Source: Anaerolineae bacterium (GTDB taxonomy: Bacteria > Chloroflexota > Anaerolineae > J102). From it: a stretch of DNA of 43,550 nt. This document shows, one piece after another, positions 11,831 to 34,282 of the stretch. Where the stretch lies: NCBI GenBank assembly GCA_026991225.1, contig JALXCB010000139.1, positions 1 to 43,550 of the forward strand. The letters run 5' to 3'. Every line of letters starts with the position of its first letter. The stretch's first letter is position 1. The notes under the pieces were generated by a model. It made no database searches and was not told the origin of the DNA. It was given only the letters and a program-made list of their open reading frames with translations. The translations under genes and the position numbers were made by a program.

Positions 11831-14800
11831 TCAATTCCTTTGGCGACGCTCCACCTCTAAAGAGTCCTCGCCCAAAAGCTGCCGCACATCCGCGACGAGC
11901 TCAGGGCAGTAGCGGGTTTTGCGGTCGGGAAAGTCGATGCGCAGGGTTTCGCCCGCGCGGGCGATTTGCAAGTAGAAGGGCTCGTCACCCGCGTAGCTAT
12001 CCAACAGTCGCATGAGCGCATCCAGACGGCGCAGGTCATCCGCGCTATCGTCGGAGAGCTGGAAATGGATGCACAGGGTGCGCAGGGGACGGTCGGGCGT
12101 GGGAGGCATGGGGGGCTCCTCGGTGTGATGGCCGTTGTCGCGGGCGGCCGCAGGCGGAGGATCGGGCGGAGGCGTAAGCAAGTCGGCGGCATACGTGGGC
12201 GTCCACGTTTCCCTCAGCGCGCTTTCATCGTCCAAAGGGAACGCTTCTTCCTCATCTTCTGCGAAATCAGACTGAGCGGAGCGGAGCAGGGCGTTGATAT
12301 CCTCATCGGGCTCATCCAACGAAGGCAATGCATCCGCCCGCACGGGGATATCCTTCATGATGTCATCGGCCAGAATGCCCGCTCGCTCGTTCCGCACGTC
12401 CACCTTGCCCCGCACCAGCACGATGCGCCCCTCCACCAGCAGGTCCCGGGCCTTTTCGTACAGCTTGGGGAAGACGGTGACGTCGCAAAAACCCTCCATG
12501 TCCTCCAAAGTGACGAAGGCCATGCGGTCGCCTTTTTTGGTGAGGATGGTGCGCACGCCCGCGATCATGCCCAGCACAGAGACGAAGCGCCCCTGACGGG
12601 CGGGGGTGATGTCGATGCAGGTGGCGTTGACCGCGTGGGCGTAATCCACCGAAAGCTCCATGAGAGGATGGGAGGAAACGTAAACGCCCAGCAACTCCTT
12701 CTCCCAGGCCAGTTTCTCTTTGGATGGCACGCGCTCGTAATTGATGGGCAGACGCAGTTCGCTGCGCATCCCGCCCATGTCCATGTCCCCGAACATATCG
12801 AACAGGCTGACCTGTCCCACGTCCTTCGCTTCCCAAACGCTCTTGGAAAGGGCCTGCATCTGATCGATGGCCGCCAGCAATTGCTCCCGCTCGCCCCAGG
12901 CGTCCAGCGCCCCCACCTTGATCAGGGCCTCCAGCGCCCGGCGGTTGACCTTGCGCAGGTCCACCCGTTCGCAGAAATCGGTGAGGGACTGGAAGGGGCC
13001 GCCCTCGCTGCGGGCGCGGATGATCTCCTCCACCGGGCCTTCGCCCACGTTCTTGATGGCGGCCAGGCCGAAGCGGATGGCGGAGCCGGGCGGCACGCGG
13101 AAATCAAAGCGGGTGCGGCCAAAGGTCTTGACCTCGGCGGCCTCGGGCGATTCCACGATGGTGAACCCCGCGTCGGACTGATTGATATCGGGCGGGAGCA
13201 CCTGGATGCCCATGTGGCGGCATTCTTTGATGAAGTTGGTCACCTTGTCCAGGTTGTCCCGCTCCACCGTCAGCAGCGCAGCCATGTATTCCACCGGGTA
13301 GTGGGCCTTGAGATAGGCCGTCTGCACGGTGATGACCGCGTAGTCCGCGGCATGACTGTTGTGCACCAGGATGTCGTTGGCGATGAAGTTGTGGGTTTCG
13401 GGGATTTCGAGGTCATACGTCTGTTTTTCGCCCACGAAATCAATCGCCGCGATCTTGTCCCAATAGATGTCGTTTTGGGCGTAGCGGCGGAGATCGTCGT
13501 CATCGAAGAATTCCGCCAGGCGTTGGATGGTCTGCCGCCGGAAACCGGTTTTGTTGGGATTGTCGGCCGGATAGAATTCCCGCTGCGCCACGCCCGTGCG
13601 CTGGTTGATCTCCTTCCAGCTCATGCCCGACCGATCTTTGGCCTCCCGAACGAATGCCTTGACCGCCAAGGGCACGATATCCTTGCTGGATTGATCCTGT
13701 TTGACGTCAGTCAGCAAACCATTCAGGGCGGCGCGGCATTTTGAGCTGACAAAATAGACGCCTATCTGAGCGGCAAAGGCCCAGATATGCTCATCGCCCG
13801 TGATGAAAAGCTGGTAGCCTGTACGCCCTTCTTTGTAGGGGAATTCGACCGTGCGCAATCGGGAGAGAATGCCGAACCGCAGCAGCAGGTGCTGGAGTTG
13901 GCGGGCGAGTTTTTCCGAGGCAGTGGCGTAGAACAGGCTGCGTCCGCCCACGTTGATGTGGCCGTCCCCCTCCCACATGCGGCTGATGAGAAGCGCGATC
14001 TGGCGGTTGGTGAGCTCGAATGCGTCGGGGGGAATGGTCTTCTCCGCGGCCTTCTTCCCCCAGATGCCGATGGCTTTGGCCCAGGTCACGATGCCCGCTT
14101 CCCGGCTGCGGTCGATGCGCTTCGCATACGCCGAATGCGTCCCCTTGTGGAGGGTCACCCGGCATTGGGTGTTGTCGAATGCTTCGGCCGCCCGGCAATA
14201 GTCCGCCAGCAGGGCGTCGTCCTGAGTGTAGAAATAGACGGATGCAGGATGACGCAGGTTGCCCTCGGCCAGCAGGTGGCCCAGGGCGATGACCTCATGG
14301 TCGGGCCATTGCTTTTGGCCCTGGATGGGGATAACGCGCGGGGTGGCGATGAGATCGCCGGGTCGCAGGTCGGCCAGGAGTCGCCAGCCATGAAAGGTGT
14401 AGAAAGGATGGTTGGCCGTGGCCTCGATGACCCGCCCCGATGCGGTTTTCAGGCGGAATACAGGCTTGACGCCGTTGTCCATGACGCGGGCCACGGGCTG
14501 CGCGCGCAAGGTGAGCGTGTCGACGTCGCAGCTCACGGTGCGAGTGAGCCGCGCCCGGCCATGATAGAGGTCTTCGATGCGCACCAGGCGTCCGGTTTCG
14601 GCGTCCAGCACCTCGACGTCGCCCGGCAAACATTTGTTGAAGCCGTAGTTGGCGAAGAAGACGATATCTTCGTAGATTTTCGTGGCCGCGTCCGGCGGGA
14701 TGCCGTTGGCCACCGCGCCCTCGATGAATTTCACCTTGTGCGCGGCCATCTCCTTTTCCTTCTTCTTGGCCACGGCCCGCCGCATGAGATCGGCCTCGCC

Positions 14801-16906
14801 CGGGGTGTAGCCTGCAAGCTGGGACGCGATCTGGATGATCTGCTCCTGATAGACGATGATGCCGTAGGTTTCGGCCAGGATGGGCTCCAGCGCGGGATGG
14901 ACGTATTTCACCGGCTTGCGGCCATGCATGCGGTCGATGTAGAGGGGGATGTATTGCATGGGGCCGGGGCGGTAGAGGGAGATGGTGGCCACGATGTGCT
15001 CGAATTTCGTGGGCTTCATGCTGCGCAGCACGCCCCGCATCCCCTCCGATTCCACCTGGAAGACGCCGGTGACCTCGCCCGAGGCCAGGAGTTCGTAGGC
15101 GCGGGGATCGTCGGTGGGGATGTTGTTCAAATCGTATTCGACGCCATGCCGTTCCTTGATCAGCTCTGCGGCCACGCGCATGATGGTGAGGGTGGCCAGG
15201 CCCAGAAAGTCCATCTTCAGCAGGCCCAGGCTTTCCAGCACGGGGTACGTGAATTGGGTGATGTAGTCGCGCACGGCCTTGCTGGGCGCGCGCACCAGGG
15301 GCGTGTAGTTGATGAGAGGCTTGTCGGCGATGATGACCGCGGCGGGGTGGATGCTGATATGCCGGGCCACGCCTTCCAGTTTTTTGGCGTTGTCCAACAA
15401 CTTTCGCACCTGCTCATCCCGATCATAGAGCTGCTTCAGCTCCTTGACCTCTTCCAGGGCTTTCTTCAGGGTGACTTTAGGGCCGGCCGGGATCAGTTTG
15501 GCGATCTGATCCACTTCATCCAGGGGGATGTTCATGGCCCGGGCCACGTCGCGCACGCTGGCCCGGGCTTTCATCGTGCCGAAGACCACGATCTGCGCCA
15601 CCCGATCATCCCCATATTTCTCCAACGTGTATTCGATCATCTGGTCCCGCTGGTCGTCGGGGTAGTCGAGATCGAAGTCGGGCATGGAGACGCGGCCGGG
15701 GTTGAGGAAGCGCTCGAAGATGAGGTTGTTGGGCAGGGGATCCAGGTTGGTGATGCCGATGGCGTAGGCCACCAGGGACCCTGCGCCCGACCCGCGCACA
15801 TTCCACCAGATGTTTCGCTTCCGCGCGTACTCGCACAAGTCCCACACGATGAGGTAATAGACGTCGAATCCCATGTCGTGGATGATCTTGAGTTCGTGCT
15901 CCTTGCGCTTCTGAATCTCCGGGTCTTTGGCCCGCTTGCCGTAGCGCCGTTTCAGGCCCTGTTCGGTGAGGTGGCGCAGGTAGGCCTCGGCGCTGTCGAA
16001 GCCGGGGGGCAGGTCGAAGTGGGGCAGGTGATAGCCGGTGGGGCTCAGGTCCACCTCGGCCATCTCGGCGATGCGCAGGGTATTGGTGAAGGCGCTTTCG
16101 GGCAGGTCGATGTAGGGCCGGAATGCGTCTTCCAGCTCACGCCGCGACTTCAGGTAGTACCCGAAGTCGGACATACGCATCCGGTTTTCGTCGTCCAGGG
16201 TGCTGCTGGTCTGCACGCAGAGAAGGATGTCGTGGGATGGACCGTCGTCGGGATAGACGTAGTGGACGTCGTTGGTGACGATCATGTCCAGATCGTATTC
16301 CTTGGCCCACTGGATCAAGGTGCGATTCACCTTATGCAGCGCGGGGATGTCGTGCATCTGAAGCTCGACGAAGAAGCGATCGCGGCCGAATACGTCGAGA
16401 TACCACTCCAGGCGCTGGCGGGCCAGTTTTTCGTCGGGCGGGCCGTCCTCGTCGCTGAGATAGGTGGGCACTTCGCCCGCCAGGCAGCCGGTGGTGGTGA
16501 CGATTCCTTCGTTGTAGCGGGCCAGCAGATCCGCGTCGATGCGGGGTTTGTAGTAGTAGCCGCGGGTGTTGGCCTCGGAGACCAGTTTCAGCAGGTTGAG
16601 GTAGCCGGTCTGGTTGATGGCCAGCAGGAGGATGTGATGGCGGAAGCTGTCCTTTTGCGGGTCGCGGCCCGTCATGGGGCGGCCCCAGCGGGTGATGTAG
16701 CCCTCGACGCCGATGATGGGCTTGACGCCCGCTTTCGTGGCCGCGTTGAAGAAATCGATGGCCCCGTGCATGTTGCCGTGGTCGGTAAGCGCGACCGCGG
16801 GCTGGCCTAACTCTTTGGCCCGTTCGACCAGATCATCGATTTTGCTGAGGCCGTCGAGCAAGGAGTATTGGCTGTGGACGTGGAGATGGACGAAGTCGTC
16901 GGGCAT
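11831..16906 (-). CDS. dnaE: DNA polymerase III alpha subunit, intein-containing precursor
   Basis: A 1691-residue precursor of the replicative polymerase; removal of the intein leaves 1266 residues, normal for DnaE. The N-terminal PHP domain starts [13 protein letters not shown] and keeps [14 protein letters not shown]. Palm residues D410 and D412 lie in [11 protein letters not shown], matching the catalytic pair D401/D403 of E. coli DnaE. Next come the PolC thumb/fingers words ([31 protein letters not shown]). After the intein comes [21 protein letters not shown], then the helix-hairpin-helix region and an OB fold ([27 protein letters not shown]). The start at [12 protein letters not shown] is the family start; the frame is open further upstream but without conserved sequence. 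A Pro-rich insert near the C-terminus (about [15 protein letters not shown]) joins a last small domain. Confidence 0.96.
13358..14632 (-). other. Intein with LAGLIDADG homing endonuclease inside DnaE
   Basis: A 425-residue class 1 intein (precursor residues 759-1183) between extein residues ...YGFNK and SHAADYAV.... Splicing residues are all visible: Cys1 in [12 protein letters not shown] (block A), TxxH in ATANHPFYT (block B), block [24 protein letters not shown], and the terminal His-Asn in ILVHN, followed by Ser+1. Two LAGLIDADG-type helices, LGHLLAEGN and [11 protein letters not shown], keep their acidic residues, so the endonuclease is probably active. The insertion point is a highly conserved DnaE segment, three residues downstream of where the cyanobacterial split DnaE intein sits (before CFNKSH). 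Confidence 0.93.
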
Positions 16907-17010
16907 GGGGAATCGGCATTCAGTAATAAAGCTTTGTCTCACGCAAAGTCGCCAAGGCGCCAAGGGAAATGTCCCAGATTCGGCCTTTTTCGCTTCCGCG
17001 CTCTCGGTTT

Positions 17011-17259
17011 CTAAACTGAAATCATTTTGAAACTCGGTATTTTTTGGGGCCACGCCCGCCCGGCGCTGAAGCCGCCGGGCTACGGAACGACGCCGGGTAA
17101 ACCCGGCTTGATTGCGGCCACGGCAGAAAAGCCCCATTCATGGGGCGTCGTTCTTAGCCCGCAGGTTCACCTGCGGGTGGCTGCATAGCCTTTAGAACAG
17201 CGTCATTTTCGCATGGAAGTCGAGCCAAAAACCTGGTTTTCATTTTGCTTCCAGTTTGG
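17011..17259 (+). repeat. Hairpin-chain repeat, family B copy 1
   Basis: Ends CTAAACTGAAA... and ...CTTCCAGTTTGG are inverted copies of each other. Between them is a row of hairpins: GCCGGGTAAACCCGGC, GCCCCATTCATGGGGC and CCCGCAGGTTCACCTGCGGG. The same row with small changes occurs at 26546-26951 and 33689-34282. No target duplication could be found for this copy. The rest of the gap (16907-17010 and 17260-17330) shows nothing further. Confidence 0.75.
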
Positions 17260-18738: not shown

Positions 18739-18892
18739 GTAACTGCTAAGGTATCGCCACCACTTTTTGCCACGAAGACACGAAGAAAAGCCAAGGCACG
18801 ACGTATTTTTCTTGATTTTTCCTTCGTGTCTTCGAAAAACTTCGAGCCTTCGTGGCTTTTGGCGGCCTAAAGTCAAGTACGTTAGCAGTTAC
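18739..18892 (+). mobile_element. 154-bp palindromic mobile element, copy A1
   Basis: Starts GTAACTGCTAAG and ends CGTTAGCAGTTAC, forming inverted terminal repeats. It is flanked on both sides by CAAACAGC (18731-18738 and 18893-18900), a perfect 8-bp target duplication. The interior is an imperfect long palindrome (GCCACGAAGACACGAAG against CTTCGAGCCTTCGTGGC) with no coding capacity. It differs from copy A2 at about five positions over its length, so both moved recently. Behaves as a MITE, a non-autonomous element moved by a transposase coded elsewhere. Confidence 0.9.
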
Positions 18893-18951: not shown

Positions 18952-20226
18952 TCAGAATTCCGGCCAGGCGATGTTCACGCCCGAGGGGACTTCCAGGCCG
19001 TCAAAGGCTGCGAAATCATCCTCCGCGACGCCCACGCCGACCACCACATTGCGGCCCAGCTTCGCGCCCTCGGGGATGCGGCTCTTCTGGCCCACCAGGG
19101 TGATGCCGGTGTTGAGGATGTCGGGGCGGACAGGGTTGGGACGGTCGTTTTCCCCCACGCCCACCTGCGCCCGCGCGCCCACGACCACATCCTCATCCAG
19201 GATGGCTCGGTCCACCACCGCGCCCTCATGGATGATCGCGTCGTGCATGATGATGCTGTCGCGCACCACCGCGCCCGCTTCGATGACCACGCCCGGACCG
19301 ATGATGGAGCGGATCACCTGGCCTTCGATGCGAGCGCCATCGCTGAGCAGATTGTTTCGCACCCGGGCCTCTTCACTGAACCACACGGGCGGATACTGCT
19401 CCGACCGGGTGTGGATGGTCCAGCGGCGATCGTTCAGCTCCAATGCGGGGATGTCGGCCAGCAGGGCCATGTTGGCCTCGTAGAAGGCGGGAACCGCGCC
19501 CACGTTGGCCCAATAACCCTCGAATTCGTAGGCGTACACGCGTTTGGCCTTGACCAGGGCTGGAATGACTTCGCCGCCCAGGTCATTGGCTTCTGCGCCC
19601 GGCCCGCGCAGCCAGTCGACCAGGGTGGCCGCGTTGAAGACGTAGATGCCCATGCTGGCCAGGGTGGCGCGGGTGCGCCGGGGCTTTTCCTCGAAGCGGA
19701 TGATGCGGTTGTCCACATCGGTGGTGACCATGCCGAAGCGCGAAGTTTGGTGGGGGCTGACCGGGCGCACGGCGATAGTGACGTCGGCCCGGCGGGACAG
19801 ATGGAATTCCAGCAGGGGCTGGTAGTTCATCTTGTAAACGTGATTGCCCGACAGCACCAACACCAAATCCGCCCCGCTTTCTTCGATGACATCGAGATTG
19901 AAGCGCAGCGCATCCGCGGAGCCCTTCTCCCACAAGCCCTCGCCCGGTCGGGTCTGGTAGGGCTGAAGCAACCGCACGCCGCCCGTGGCCCGGTCCAGGT
20001 CCCAGGGCTTGCCCGAGCGGATGTGCTCGTTCAGGGGGCGGGGCATGTATTGGGTGAGCACGGCGACATTGTAGATGTCGGAGTTGACGCAATTGGAGAG
20101 GGGGAAATCGATGACGCGGTATTTCCCGGCAAAAGGCACGGCCGACGCGGGCCGCCGGGCGGTGAGCACGGCCAGTCCGGGGCCCGCGCCCCCGGCCAGG
20201 ATCATGGCGATGACGGATGGGGACAT
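18952..20226 (-). CDS. GlgC paralogue with degenerate active site
   Basis: A 424-residue protein of the glucose-1-phosphate adenylyltransferase family: nucleotidyltransferase fold, then a left-handed beta-helix (hexapeptide units such as IIGPGVVIEAGAVV) at the C-terminus. The residues that bind and act on ATP are altered. The canonical GGEGSRL is GGAGPGL (Arg to Gly17), AKPSVP is PASAVP (Lys to Ala27), and the metal-binding Asp in [10 protein letters not shown] is Asn128 (SGNHVYKMNY, with Asn134 too). E. coli GlgC needs the matching Asp142. It therefore probably has little catalysis and may be a regulatory or structural partner of the GlgC coded just upstream, comparable in principle to GlgD in Firmicutes. 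Start supported by GAGGTGA ahead of ATG. 115 bases separate it from glgC. Confidence 0.85.
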   Translation of the reverse strand: MSPSVIAMILAGGAGPGLAVLTARRPASAVPFAGKYRVIDFPLSNCVNSDIYNVAVLTQYMPRPLNEHIRSGKPWDLDRATGGVRLLQPYQTRPGEGLWEKGSADALRFNLDVIEESGADLVLVLSGNHVYKMNYQPLLEFHLSRRADVTIAVRPVSPHQTSRFGMVTTDVDNRIIRFEEKPRRTRATLASMGIYVFNAATLVDWLRGPGAEANDLGGEVIPALVKAKRVYAYEFEGYWANVGAVPAFYEANMALLADIPALELNDRRWTIHTRSEQYPPVWFSEEARVRNNLLSDGARIEGQVIRSIIGPGVVIEAGAVVRDSIIMHDAIIHEGAVVDRAILDEDVVVGARAQVGVGENDRPNPVRPDILNTGITLVGQKSRIPEGAKLGRNVVVGVGVAEDDFAAFDGLEVPSGVNIAWPEF

Positions 20227-20296: not shown

Positions 20297-20362
20297 GAGT
20301 GCGTGAAACGTGAAAACGTGATGCGTGAAATTTCGACGTTTTACGTTTCACGTTTTACGTCG
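20297..20362. repeat. Palindromic CGTGAAACG/CGTTTCACG repeat (family D)
   Basis: A run of GCGTGAAACGTGAAAACGTG words faces ACGTTTTACGTTTCACG, making a long imperfect hairpin. It lies between glgC and its paralogue and extends into glgC, coding that protein's last residues (VKRET) and stop. Related blocks lie at 7868-7930 and 36213-36270. Confidence 0.7.
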
Positions 20363-21699
20363 CTGGCGGCCTCGTCCGGGGCGGGGCGTTCGTCTTCCAG
20401 TTCCGACGCGGACGCCTCTGATTCGGGCAGGATCATGCCGCCGGGATGAACGGATGCGCCCGAGGGAATATCAGTTCGCTCCTCGAAGTCGTCCAGGTCC
20501 ACGCCTGCATCGATGAGCACATTGCGGCCAATGCTGACGTTTTCGGGAATGTACGCGCCTTTGCCCACCACGGTAATGCCGGTATTGAGTTTGTCGGGCA
20601 TTTCGGCGTTGGGGACGGTCAAATCCTCGCCCACGCCCAGGCGCACGCCCGCACTGACGACGACGTTTTTATCGACAACAACCTTGTCGAGCATGGCGCC
20701 AGGACCGATGAAGGTGTCGTTCATCACGACGGATTCCCGCACGACCGCGCCCGGGGAGACGAACACGCCCGGCGAGAGCACAGAGCGATAGACTTCGCCC
20801 TGGATGACGCAACCATTGCTGACCAGGGAGCGGGCGCTTTTGCCCAGCACGCTGGTCTTGACCGGCGGGCGTTCCTGGCTGCGGGTGCGTATCTGCCAGG
20901 TCGAGTCCCACAGATCCAGGGGATGGTTCGGATCGCACAGCTCCATAGAGGTGCTCCAATAGGCGTCGATGGTGCCCACGTCCACCCAATAGCCTTCGAA
21001 CGGGAAGGCGTAGACCTTGTCCCGATCGATCATATGGGGGATGACGTGTTTGCCGAAGTCGAGATCGGGATGCTCGGGGTGGAGTTCGGTCAGCCGGGCC
21101 TCCAGCACGTCGGTGTTGAAGAGATAGATGCCCATGCTGGCCAGGGTGCCTCGGTCTTCTTTGGGTTTTTCGTAGAAGGCGGTGATGCGCCCATTGCGAT
21201 TCGTGGTCATGATGCCGAAGCGATGGGCCTCCTCTTTGGGCACGTGCATGACCGCGATGGTGACGTCCGCTCCCTTCTCCTGATGAAAACGGATCATTTC
21301 CCGATAATCCATCTTGTAAATGTGATCGCCCGAGAGGATGAGCGCGCCGTCCGCGTCCCGATTCTGGATGAAATCCAGGTTCTGGAAGACCGCATCCGCG
21401 GTGCCCGCATACCAGCTTCGGCCCTCTCGGGCCTGATAGGGTTGCAGCAGGCGGATGCCGCCATGAATGCGGTCCAGGTCCCACGGTTTACCGATGCCGA
21501 TATGTTCGTTGAGGGAATGGGGGCGATACTGCGTCAGCACGGCGATGTCGTAGATTTCGGAATTGACGCAGTTGGAGATGGTGAAATCGATGATGCGATA
21601 TTTGCCGGCGAAGGGGACGGAGGGTTTGGCCCGGTGCGCGGAAAGCACCGTGAGCCGGGACCCCTCGCCGCCCGCCAGGATGAGAGCCACCACGCGCAT
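20341..21699 (-). CDS. glgC: Glucose-1-phosphate adenylyltransferase
   Basis: A 452-residue ADP-glucose pyrophosphorylase: ATP plus glucose-1-phosphate gives ADP-glucose for glycogen synthesis. All key motifs are present: [10 protein letters not shown] (Arg15), [12 protein letters not shown] (Lys25), [16 protein letters not shown] (Asp125), ASMGIYLFN and [10 protein letters not shown], then a beta-helix C-terminal domain with hexapeptide repeats. Start supported by CCGGAGA ahead of ATG. The C-terminal tail after about residue 420 is Glu/Ala-rich and non-conserved, and its last residues and stop codon come from a palindromic repeat. A 141-bp mobile element sits 25 bases upstream of the start codon, inside the leader or promoter. 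Confidence 0.95.
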
Positions 21700-21723
21700 G
21701 GGACGTCTCCGGAGAGTGGGAAT

Positions 21724-21864
21724 GCAACTGCTAAGACGCCATCCTCATTCAACACGGATAATAAGGAAACACGGATAAAAATCATTGGAAATGAAGACTT
21801 CGTTCGATGATTATCCGTGTTTTTTCTATCCGTGTTGGGAAAACAATGGAACGTTAGCAGTAAT
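21724..21864. mobile_element. 141-bp mobile element with the same ends but a different core, copy A4
   Basis: Starts GCAACTGCTAAG and ends CGTTAGCAGTAAT, related to the ends of the 154-bp elements. It is flanked by a perfect 8-bp duplication GTGGGAAT (21716-21723 and 21865-21872). The core is a palindrome of ACACGGATAA/TTATCCGTGT words, unlike the CGAAGACACGAAG core of the other copies. It separates the glgC start codon and ribosome-binding site from everything upstream. Confidence 0.85.
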
Positions 21865-21958
21865 GTGGGAATCCAGCAAAATAATCGGATGGAGGACGCA
21901 GGTTCCACCGTTAAGATTAACAAAGATAGGGCGGTTGGGCAAACGGCCACATCTTGAT

Positions 21959-22308: not shown

Positions 22309-22462
22309 GTAACTACTAAGGTGTCGCCACCACTTTTTGCCACGAAGACACGAAGAAAAGCGAAGGCACGACGTATTTTTCTTCATTTTTCCTTCGTGTC
22401 TTCGAAAAACTTCGAGCCTTCGTGGCTTTTGGCGGCCTTAAGTCAAGTACGTTAGCAGTTAC
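22309..22462 (+). mobile_element. 154-bp palindromic mobile element, copy A2
   Basis: Starts GTAACTACTAAG, ends CGTTAGCAGTTAC, and is flanked by a perfect 8-bp duplication GAAAAATA (22301-22308 and 22463-22470). Same length and almost the same sequence as A1. It sits directly next to the -35 position of the ppdK promoter. Confidence 0.9.
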
Positions 22463-26455: not shown

Positions 26456-26545
26456 AGCACGCTAAACAGAAGTCCTTTTGGAATCCGGCTGGTTCACCGA
26501 CTGAAGTCAGTCTCTCCAGGCCTGCGGCCAGTGAGCTTATTTAAG

Positions 26546-26951
26546 CTAAACGCATTTTGAAATCAGGTGTTTTCGGCCTCGGCCACCCGGAGCTGAAGCT
26601 CCGGGCTACGAAACGACGCCGGGTGAACCCGGCTTCCCGCGGCGCGCGACATGCGCCATAGCCCCATTTATGGGGCGTCGTTTTTAGCCCGCAGGTTCAC
26701 CTGCGGGCGGCGGCGCGGCCAGAGAATCGCCGTAACTGCTAACGTACTTGACTTTAGACCACCAAAAGCCACGAAGGCTCGAAGTTTTTCGAAGACACGA
26801 AGGAAAAATAATGAAAAATACGTCGTGCCTTCGCTTTTCTTCGTGTCTTCGTGGCAAAAAGTGGTCGGGATACCTTAGTAGTTACGAATCGCCTTTCATT
26901 GATGATCTAATGCGAACCAAAAGCCTTGGTTTCAATTTGCTTTCAGTTTAG
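26546..26951 (+). repeat. Hairpin-chain repeat, family B copy 2, interrupted by element A3
   Basis: Ends CTAAACGCATTTTGAAATC and GCTTTCAGTTTAG. Hairpins: CCGGAGCTGAAGCTCCGG, GCCGGGTGAACCCGGC, GCCCCATTTATGGGGC and CCCGCAGGTTCACCTGCGGG. Its right part is split by the 154-bp element A3. Just before it (26491-26535) lies a fragment sharing GACTGAAGTC and GGCCTGCGGCC with element G. The gap 26456-27014 contains only these repeats. Confidence 0.8.
26732..26885 (-). mobile_element. 154-bp palindromic mobile element, copy A3, inside repeat B2
   Basis: Inverse orientation to A1 and A2: starts GTAACTGCTAACG, ends CCTTAGTAGTTAC. Flanked by a perfect 8-bp duplication GAATCGCC (26724-26731 and 26886-26893). 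Family B copy 3 at about 33756 has GAATCGCC only once at the matching place (read on the minus strand, AGAGAATCGCCTTTCAT), so it shows the empty site. Confidence 0.92.
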
Positions 26952-27014
26952 AACACTCCAAAGATTTTATCCGTGTCCCCCTCATCCGTGTTGCTTGAAC
27001 AAACCAAAAAAACA

Positions 27015-33576: not shown

Positions 33577-33692
33577 GCCATTTTGTAACAGACACACATG
33601 GGCTGATCTGGTATTTGGAAGACAGCCCTCGGTTGGGACGAGAAGCCAGCAGGATATTCGATGCCTGTGACCTAGGGGAATATCTCATCTAA
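33573..33692 (+). pseudogene. PIN-domain toxin (VapC-like), truncated by a repeat
   Basis: Only 39 residues remain: MSHFVTDTHGLIWYLEDSPR, then LGREASRIFDACDLGEYLI. This is the N-terminus of a PIN-domain ribonuclease, with its first acidic residue in VTDTHGLIWYL. The other acidic active-site residues, and about 90 further residues normal for the family, are gone. The stop codon TAA is part of the CTAAACTG end of the family B repeat that begins at 33689. No downstream piece of the toxin is seen after the repeats, so its 3' part was lost. Confidence 0.75.
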
Positions 33693-34282
33693 ACTGAAAG
33701 CAAATTGAAACCAAGGATTTTGGTTTGCATTGGATCATCCATGAAAGGCGATTCTCTGGCCGCGCTGCCGCCCGCAGGTGAACCTGCGGGCTAAAAACGA
33801 CGCCCCATAAATGGGGCTACGGCGCAGGTCGCGCGCCGCAAGAAGCCGGGTTCACCCGGCGTCGTTTCGTAGCCCGGAGCTTCAGGATACTGTTGGCAAA
33901 CCTCAAACCGGTTGCATGGGGGCCTTGCCCCCGCCGACTTGAAGTCGGGGCTAGGGGCCCTTGGCCGCCTGTCTGCCTGCGCAGACAGGTCCAACCGGGC
34001 GAAAACATGTCCCCGCAGGGGGACATGCGGCGGAACGCCCTCAGACCTGAATTCATTCGGCGTACTCGCGAGAGAAGCCGAGAGGGAGCATCCTCGACGC
34101 ACCGCAGTAAACCAACAATATCGTGAACCTGCGGGCTAAAAACGACGCCCCATGAATGGGGCTACGGTGCATGTCGCGCGCCGCAAGAAGCCGGGTTCAC
34201 CCGGCGTCGTTTCGTAGCCCGGAGCTTCAGCTCCGGGTGGCCGAGGCCGAAAACACCTGATTTCAAAATACGTTTAGTTTAG
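33689..34282 (-). repeat. Composite repeat: family B copies 3 and 4 with family E copy 2 between
   Basis: Starts CTAAACTGAAAGC and ends ACGTTTAGTTTAG. Two direct copies of a block of about 108 bases (33778-33885 and 34122-34230, differing at about five positions) flank a family E hairpin chain (about 33905-34100, with GCCTGTCTGCGCAGACAGGT, ATGTCCCCGCAGGGGGACAT and GAATTCATTCGG). Hairpins in the B blocks are CCGGAGCTTCAGCTCCGG, GCCGGGTTCACCCGGC and GCCCCATGAATGGGGC. Both outer ends overlap stop codons of neighbouring genes. It fills the whole gap and codes nothing. Confidence 0.8.

Follow-up and report, generated by a model that had tools for sequence, protein, structure and literature searches.

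Introduction

Bacterial MITEs are short, gene-less elements with inverted ends and a target duplication that form stable hairpins and move by means of an IS enzyme acting in trans (accessible parts of PMC10969869 and, for MITEPsy1, PMC3189936). Those parts do not describe a single shell that holds many alternative fold-back cores, IS66-derived MITEs are described neither in them nor in the accessible part of PMC9769881, and "IS66" occurs 0 times in the text of the MITE review PMC10969869. ISDge4, an autonomous element of the ISBst12 group of the IS66 family, has the ends GTGACTACTCAGCA / GTAACTGCTCAGCA, a single gene for a 449-aa transposase and a witnessed insertion with an 8-bp direct repeat (PMC12898284, available sections). 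TIMEs are Tn3-derived miniature elements whose gene-less ends mobilise different cores and give mosaic elements; they have 38-bp Tn3 ends and 5-6 bp duplications, and plasmid segments are mobilised in the manner of a composite transposon (available portion of PMC4133298). REP/BIME sequences are small intergenic palindromes in many copies, tagged by GTAG/CGTC and tied to RAYT transposases (PMC3733652, in part). Literature searches on Anaerolineae repeats, and on IS66 with tnpC and an 8-bp duplication, found none.

The element analyzed here, A4, lies in a window of 43,550 nucleotides that is contig C139 in the 3.87-Mb metagenome-assembled genome (MAG) of an uncultured Anaerolineae bacterium. Like the bacterial MITEs it is short and gene-less, with inverted ends, a target duplication and a hairpin. 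It resembles ISDge4 in end type and duplication length, but it has a hairpin core and no gene. The ends that A4 has in common with other elements, here called the shell, are like those of TIMEs in that they are gene-less, surround different cores and give mosaics, but here they are a single short IS66 pair that encloses a palindrome. A4 was rejected as a TIME, since its ends are about 11-13 bp and its duplication 8 bp, versus 38-bp Tn3-type ends and 5-6 bp. The cores that occur without shells ("naked" cores) are, like REP/BIME, small intergenic palindromes in many copies, but cores here are longer arrays of words, and those within a shell are accompanied by IS-type ends and duplications. REP/RAYT palindromes are short and have neither IS-type ends nor a target duplication; A4 has both and was therefore rejected as one of them.

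Results

Structure and position of A4

Positions 21716-21872 of the window comprise exactly duplication, element and duplication (Table 1). The element itself (21724-21864) is 141 bp long and contains no gene; its inverted ends, of 11 bp, are imperfect, whereas the 8-bp duplication, GTGGGAAT, is perfect. The right end reads ATTACTGCTAACG inward, and the two ends are 1 and 2 mismatches from GTAACTGCTAA, the end of elements A1, A2 and A3 in the same window. The core is made of the words ACACGGAT(AA)/(TT)ATCCGTGT and not of the CGAAG words of A1-A3, and with the ends included the element folds at z = -8.6. The related ends, the true duplication and the different core words that the first-pass annotation had read here are all confirmed.

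Table 1. A4, its parts and neighboring features in the window
Feature	Position	Strand	Remark
A1: same shell as A4, CGAAG-word core	18739..18892	+	duplication CAAACAGC
Nucleotidyl-transferase gene (glgC-like)	20341..21699	-	A4 24 bp upstream of start codon
A4 left copy of 8-bp target duplication GTGGGAAT	21716..21723		8/8 identical to 21865-21872
A4 left terminal inverted repeat GCAACTGCTAAG ("AAG" end)	21724..21735	+	1 mismatch to GTAACTGCTAA
A4 left arm, end to core	21736..21751		common to C199, not to naked core C184 (0.92 of shuffles as high)
A4 fold-back core, ACACGGAT/ATCCGTGT words	21752..21837		71/86 columns identical to shell-less C184 core; folds
A4 right arm	21838..21851		absent from C184 (0.44 of shuffles as high)
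A4 right terminal inverted repeat CGTTAGCAGTAAT ("ACG" end)	21852..21864	-	2 mismatches to GTAACTGCTAA consensus
A4 right copy of 8-bp target duplication GTGGGAAT	21865..21872		perfect match to left copy
A2: same shell as A4, CGAAG-word core	22309..22462	+	duplication GAAAAATA
A3: same shell as A4, CGAAG-word core	26732..26885	-	duplication GAATCGCC; within another repeat

Chance pairing of ends was evaluated as follows: the window contains four facing end pairs (no more than 2 mismatches per end, 100-200 bp apart), all four with a perfect 8-bp duplication, while in 400 resamplings of the window under a first-order Markov model there were on average 0.005 end pairs, and 0 with a duplication, so that chance is excluded as the source of A4's paired ends and duplication. 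Rfam gave 0 matches in the window at gathering scores. The only close relative of A4, at C199:21974-22094 (89% identity over query 11-132), is a partial copy: one of its ends is the canonical GTAACTGCTAAGACG, and the opposite end is absent. Of the two doubts that the first-pass annotation had attached to its proposal, that A4 might be unique and that its ends might be no more alike than random sequence, the second falls, and the first stands in large part, A4 having almost no counterpart as a full element. Evidence that A4 itself moved later is weak, because this sole relative is partial.

The glgC start region was located in seven of the eight genus relatives, and in all seven an A4-like sequence is absent upstream of glgC (for two of them, G007 and G008, only about 130 bases were available for comparison), so A4 is best read as an insertion. 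A conserved block upstream of glgC (ATCTNTGNTA) is recognizable in six of these seven. With 24 bp between A4 and the start codon of glgC downstream of it, A4 probably lies in the glgC leader. A3 has an empty site within the window, as the paralogous repeat at 33688-33885 holds a single GAATCGCC.

Several other features of these regions were observed. Two glgC-like nucleotidyl-transferase paralogues are adjacent (18952-20226 and 20341-21699, both on the - strand), with A1 just downstream and A4 just upstream of the pair. In the relative G005 (L338), near the place of A4 upstream of glgC, there is a different fold-back with CACGGAG/CTCCGTG words, in which IS66-type ends were not noticed by eye. 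A larger repeat with CTAAACT-type ends is present at 26540-26952 and 33688-34281, where A3 interrupts one of the copies; the shelled MITEs L019, L024 and L075 also contain insertions of related sequence. The DNA polymerase III alpha gene of the window (11831-17137, - strand) contains an intein (Intein_splicing and LAGLIDADG_3 domains).

Ends and candidate mobilizing enzyme

The shell's consensus end is like the terminal inverted repeats of ISBst12-group IS66 elements (GTAACTRCTMAG), and A4's own ends differ from that consensus by 1 and 2 bases; the 8-bp target duplication is identical at 8/8 positions, and the element, at 141 bp, is below 500 bp and has no transposase gene inside. By these features A4 would be classified as a gene-less miniature element (MITE) with IS66-family ends of the ISBst12 group.

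The same genome has a decayed IS66 tnpC (PF03050 and zf-IS66 domains). A terminal GTAACTACTAAGGTAGC, which includes the "AAGG" end of the MITEs, lies 60 bp before the start of this remnant; its 3' part is disrupted and its other end is missing. Close relatives of this tnpC are present in 31 of 396 genomes of the class, its own genome counted. The nearest intact IS66 elements (L182, L183 and L187, in other Anaerolineae genera) have GTAACTACTAAGCC at both ends, and their 8-bp duplications are perfect at L182 and L187 and 7/8 at L183. An intact transposase with exactly these ends was not found in this MAG or its eight genus relatives, nor was an intact IS66 with exact GTAACTRCTAAGG ends found among 61 relatives and 396 class genomes. 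A long end pair at C38:19331-21802 resembled a full transposon in its coordinates but was rejected as an autonomous copy, since it consists of two distinct elements that flank an ABC-transporter-like gene. Because the ends of the tnpC remnant, the intact elements and ISDge4 agree, and the duplication is 8 bp, we infer that an IS66-family enzyme likely moved these MITEs.

The shell and its cores in the genome and genus

The consensus end of the shell is GTAACTRCTAASG. Strict end pairs number 145 in the genome versus 0 in the control (places are given for 100 of the 145), and single ends (13-mer, no more than 2 mismatches) number 325 and 320 versus 86 and 107 in the reversed control; these copy numbers are lower bounds, since MAGs lose repeats. 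Among 118 candidate pairs 100-200 bp long in the fetched stretches, the 8-bp duplication is perfect in 84 and 7/8 in a further 13; 82 different sequences are represented among the 84 perfect ones. When the ends are limited to one mismatch each, 95 of 111 pairs have a duplication with at most one mismatch, versus 1.1% with shuffled flanks. A4's shell is confined to its genus: it was found in 6 of 61 genomes, every one in genus g1.

Clustering of 101 sampled elements (from 137 candidate pairs, with at most 2 mismatches in the duplication and a length of 200 bp or less) gave five core families of 61, 27, 9, 3 and 1 members, the single member being A4, whose best identity to any other is 70%. When 58 elements of the relatives were added (155 in all, 97 of them from this genome; at most 1 mismatch in the duplication, 110-175 bp), a further core with AACCTGACAGGTT words appeared in 6 relatives' elements. 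The annotation's suggestion that the ends define a mobile shell with different fold-back cores is therefore upheld within the genus.

The families also have halves in common. With the ends removed, the 144-bp family has one half similar to the A1-type half (z 19.8) and a second half similar to the left half of A4 (z 16.5), and two further cross-family half pairs gave 17.6 and 12.1. The 144-bp family is thus a hybrid of a CGAAG half and a ACACGGAT half. In the 155-element set three half-clusters are partners of the A1-type half, one in 82 elements, one in 28 and one in 1.

Cores without shells, in a second shell and in nested copies

At the C184 locus the A4 core is present without a shell: 71 of 86 columns are identical, the flanking arms are unrelated and the boundary is sharp. 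In this genome 13 naked ACACGGAT fold-backs were examined; none of them has an end-like sequence (no more than 3 mismatches in 11) within 100 bp, and five of the 13 belong to a different, 49-bp repeat. This shell-less repeat, ACACGGATAATTCAAAAAATCTGTGACCGAAGGCCGTGTGAATCCGTGT, is seen at C21:6343, C86:60314, C98:3375, C112:5265 and C123:42452 of this genome (G000) and at other places, with close versions in G001, G002, G006 and G008. Fold-backs with ACACGGAT words occur in 25 of 100 genomes (17 of 70 genera) and those with CGAAG words in 18 of 100 (9 of 70 genera), with 0 control matches for either; the naked copies keep the words and differ in their loops. Two genomes, G015 and G084, have 45 and 46 ACACGGAT fold-backs, yet no IS66-type shell of 120-150 bp. 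A census of naked and shelled copies in about 357 kb from six other genomes, a small sample, gave five fold-backs, of which two have both ends, one has one end and two have none.

This genome also has a second IS66-type shell with the ends GTWACCATACA / GTAACTATACAGC, near those of the IS66 element L194, GTAACTATACAGG. Two copies of it have a CGAAG/CAAAG core and perfect 8-bp duplications (AAAGATTT and CTTTCCAA), so a core does occur inside another shell. Nine long shelled elements (253-497 bp) were inspected, and all of them, as judged by eye, have foreign sequence inside. In L024 the center of a 144-bp-type element contains a complete MITE of the second shell, flanked by a duplication of its own, and L038 has an F3 element within an F2 element with an inner duplication of 6/8. 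L066 and L024:737 are different sites with the same composite core, two extra hairpins in an F4 shell, so this composite core appears to have moved as a unit.

IS66-type shells in the class

A relaxed shell pattern (GTRACTRYTNAG...CTNARYAGTYAC, elements of about 120-150 bp) is present in 48 of the 396 class genomes, which represent 41 of 222 genera; the control has 0 matches among the genomes listed. The pattern misses A4's own genus, one of whose ends is AACG. Thirty loci were sampled from the matches in the 48 genomes. The duplication is at least 7/8 in 22 of them (18 perfect), versus 2.4% with shuffled flanks, and the other eight have no duplication of that quality. The 30 copies fall into 27 core clusters, so that the range of cores is broader than the first-pass annotation had supposed. 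Without their ends, 24 of the 30 cores fold at z < -3 (median of the 30, -5.3) and six fold no better than z = -3. Their words include GTCATTGCGAG/GAAGCAATC, GTCATTCCCGC/GCGGGAATC, GTCATTTCGA/GAGAAATCT, CGCAGATTT, ACAGGATTAACAGGATT and CCACGAAGGACACAAAG, the last in G278, which is another family. Several of these words are presumably well-known intergenic palindromes of other bacteria. A search for the core words as letters in literature text gave no repeat paper, going by titles.

Conservation and folding of the cores

The A1-type alignment consisted of 27 elements chosen by hand from 29 that had been thinned at 97% identity. Both-sides (compensatory) change was seen in 0 of 40 predicted stem pairs, which is a weak test as most pairs hardly vary. 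Conservation is 0.92-0.98 in the word regions versus 0.86-0.87 in the arms and center, a pattern that would also be expected from recent copying. With the ends removed, the hybrid family folds less strongly than the others (-32 versus -39 to -60 kcal/mol). The annotation's idea that the cores serve the host structurally found no support in these measurements.

Discussion

The MITE with IS66-type ends is a known kind of element, of which A4 is a member. One end pair with interchangeable fold-back cores is real and extends beyond this genome, and for IS66 this is not described in the literature searched, as far as its accessible text goes. The reading that we consider quite probable is that A4 has an IS66-type non-autonomous shell in which any fold-back core can ride, and that cores are acquired or exchanged by insertion into the loop. 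A4's ends would have been recognized in trans by an IS66-family transposase, and A4 would have inserted with its 8-bp duplication just upstream of glgC. Between the shell ends, any fold-back of about 100-130 bp could ride. The central loop of a shelled copy may receive other hairpin elements, and cores may in this way be acquired or exchanged; these steps we infer from the nested copies. The product would be a composite, or a recombinant with one half in common, that then moves as a unit; movement or loss of parts may follow the loop insertion. A4 would be the branch with a ACACGGAT-word palindrome as passenger, a palindrome that is also found shell-less in this and other genomes. The exchangeability proposed in the first-pass annotation is in accord with the half-cores common to several families and with the sharp boundary of the shell-less A4 core.

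These could be ordinary MITE families, in which each long inverted repeat arose independently from one duplicated transposon end, so that cores are private and are neither exchanged nor captured. Many MITEs are long hairpins by origin, and most class-wide cores are indeed unlike each other (27 clusters in 30), as independent origins predict. This explanation, already weakened, is unlikely: core words recur in unrelated genera and without shells, halves are common to several families, the CGAAG core is present in a second shell, and the A4 core is homologous to a naked core with sharp edges.

It is improbable, too, that there is only one kind of repeat, with the core native to the shell and the naked cores being shelled elements that have lost their ends. 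C199 is just such an A4-type copy minus one end, the L382 copy of G279 retains a shell-like trace, and some of the naked cores could be old shelled copies without their ends. Against end loss as the general explanation, end-like sequence is lacking within 100 bp of all 13 naked ACACGGAT fold-backs examined, the fold-back is in 17 of 70 genera versus a shell of this genus found in the genus only, and G015 and G084 combine their 45 and 46 fold-backs with the lack of any IS66-type shell of 120-150 bp. Least probable of all is that the host selects the cores as structures (RNA hairpins or protein-binding sites) and that the shell only distributes them, as the near-equal conservation of word regions and ends and the position of A4 in the presumed glgC leader might suggest; against this stand the lack of compensatory change, on its weak test, and the weaker fold of a hybrid family that joins two unlike halves.

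The interchangeable-core reading may be part of something wider, which we offer tentatively: IS66-type shells would be a general vehicle, in Anaerolineae at least, for the dispersal of intergenic fold-back word repeats, in a system of two layers. Hairpin modules would enter each other's loops, become cores and swap halves, and any short-ended shell that comes to surround a core would carry it, so that the same core would be found in different shells and the same shell with many cores. Such a system, if true, would explain hairpins with the same words and different loops in unrelated genera.

The intergenic palindromes scattered through bacterial genomes are mostly without a known means of spread. 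If short IS66-type ends take up arbitrary fold-back cores, the origin and dispersal of many such repeats could be tested as a matter of a single transposase group, and the classification of MITEs should follow their ends and not their interiors. The shelled cores would also form a natural library of roughly 100-bp passengers, from which it may be learned what a transposon end pair tolerates between its ends.
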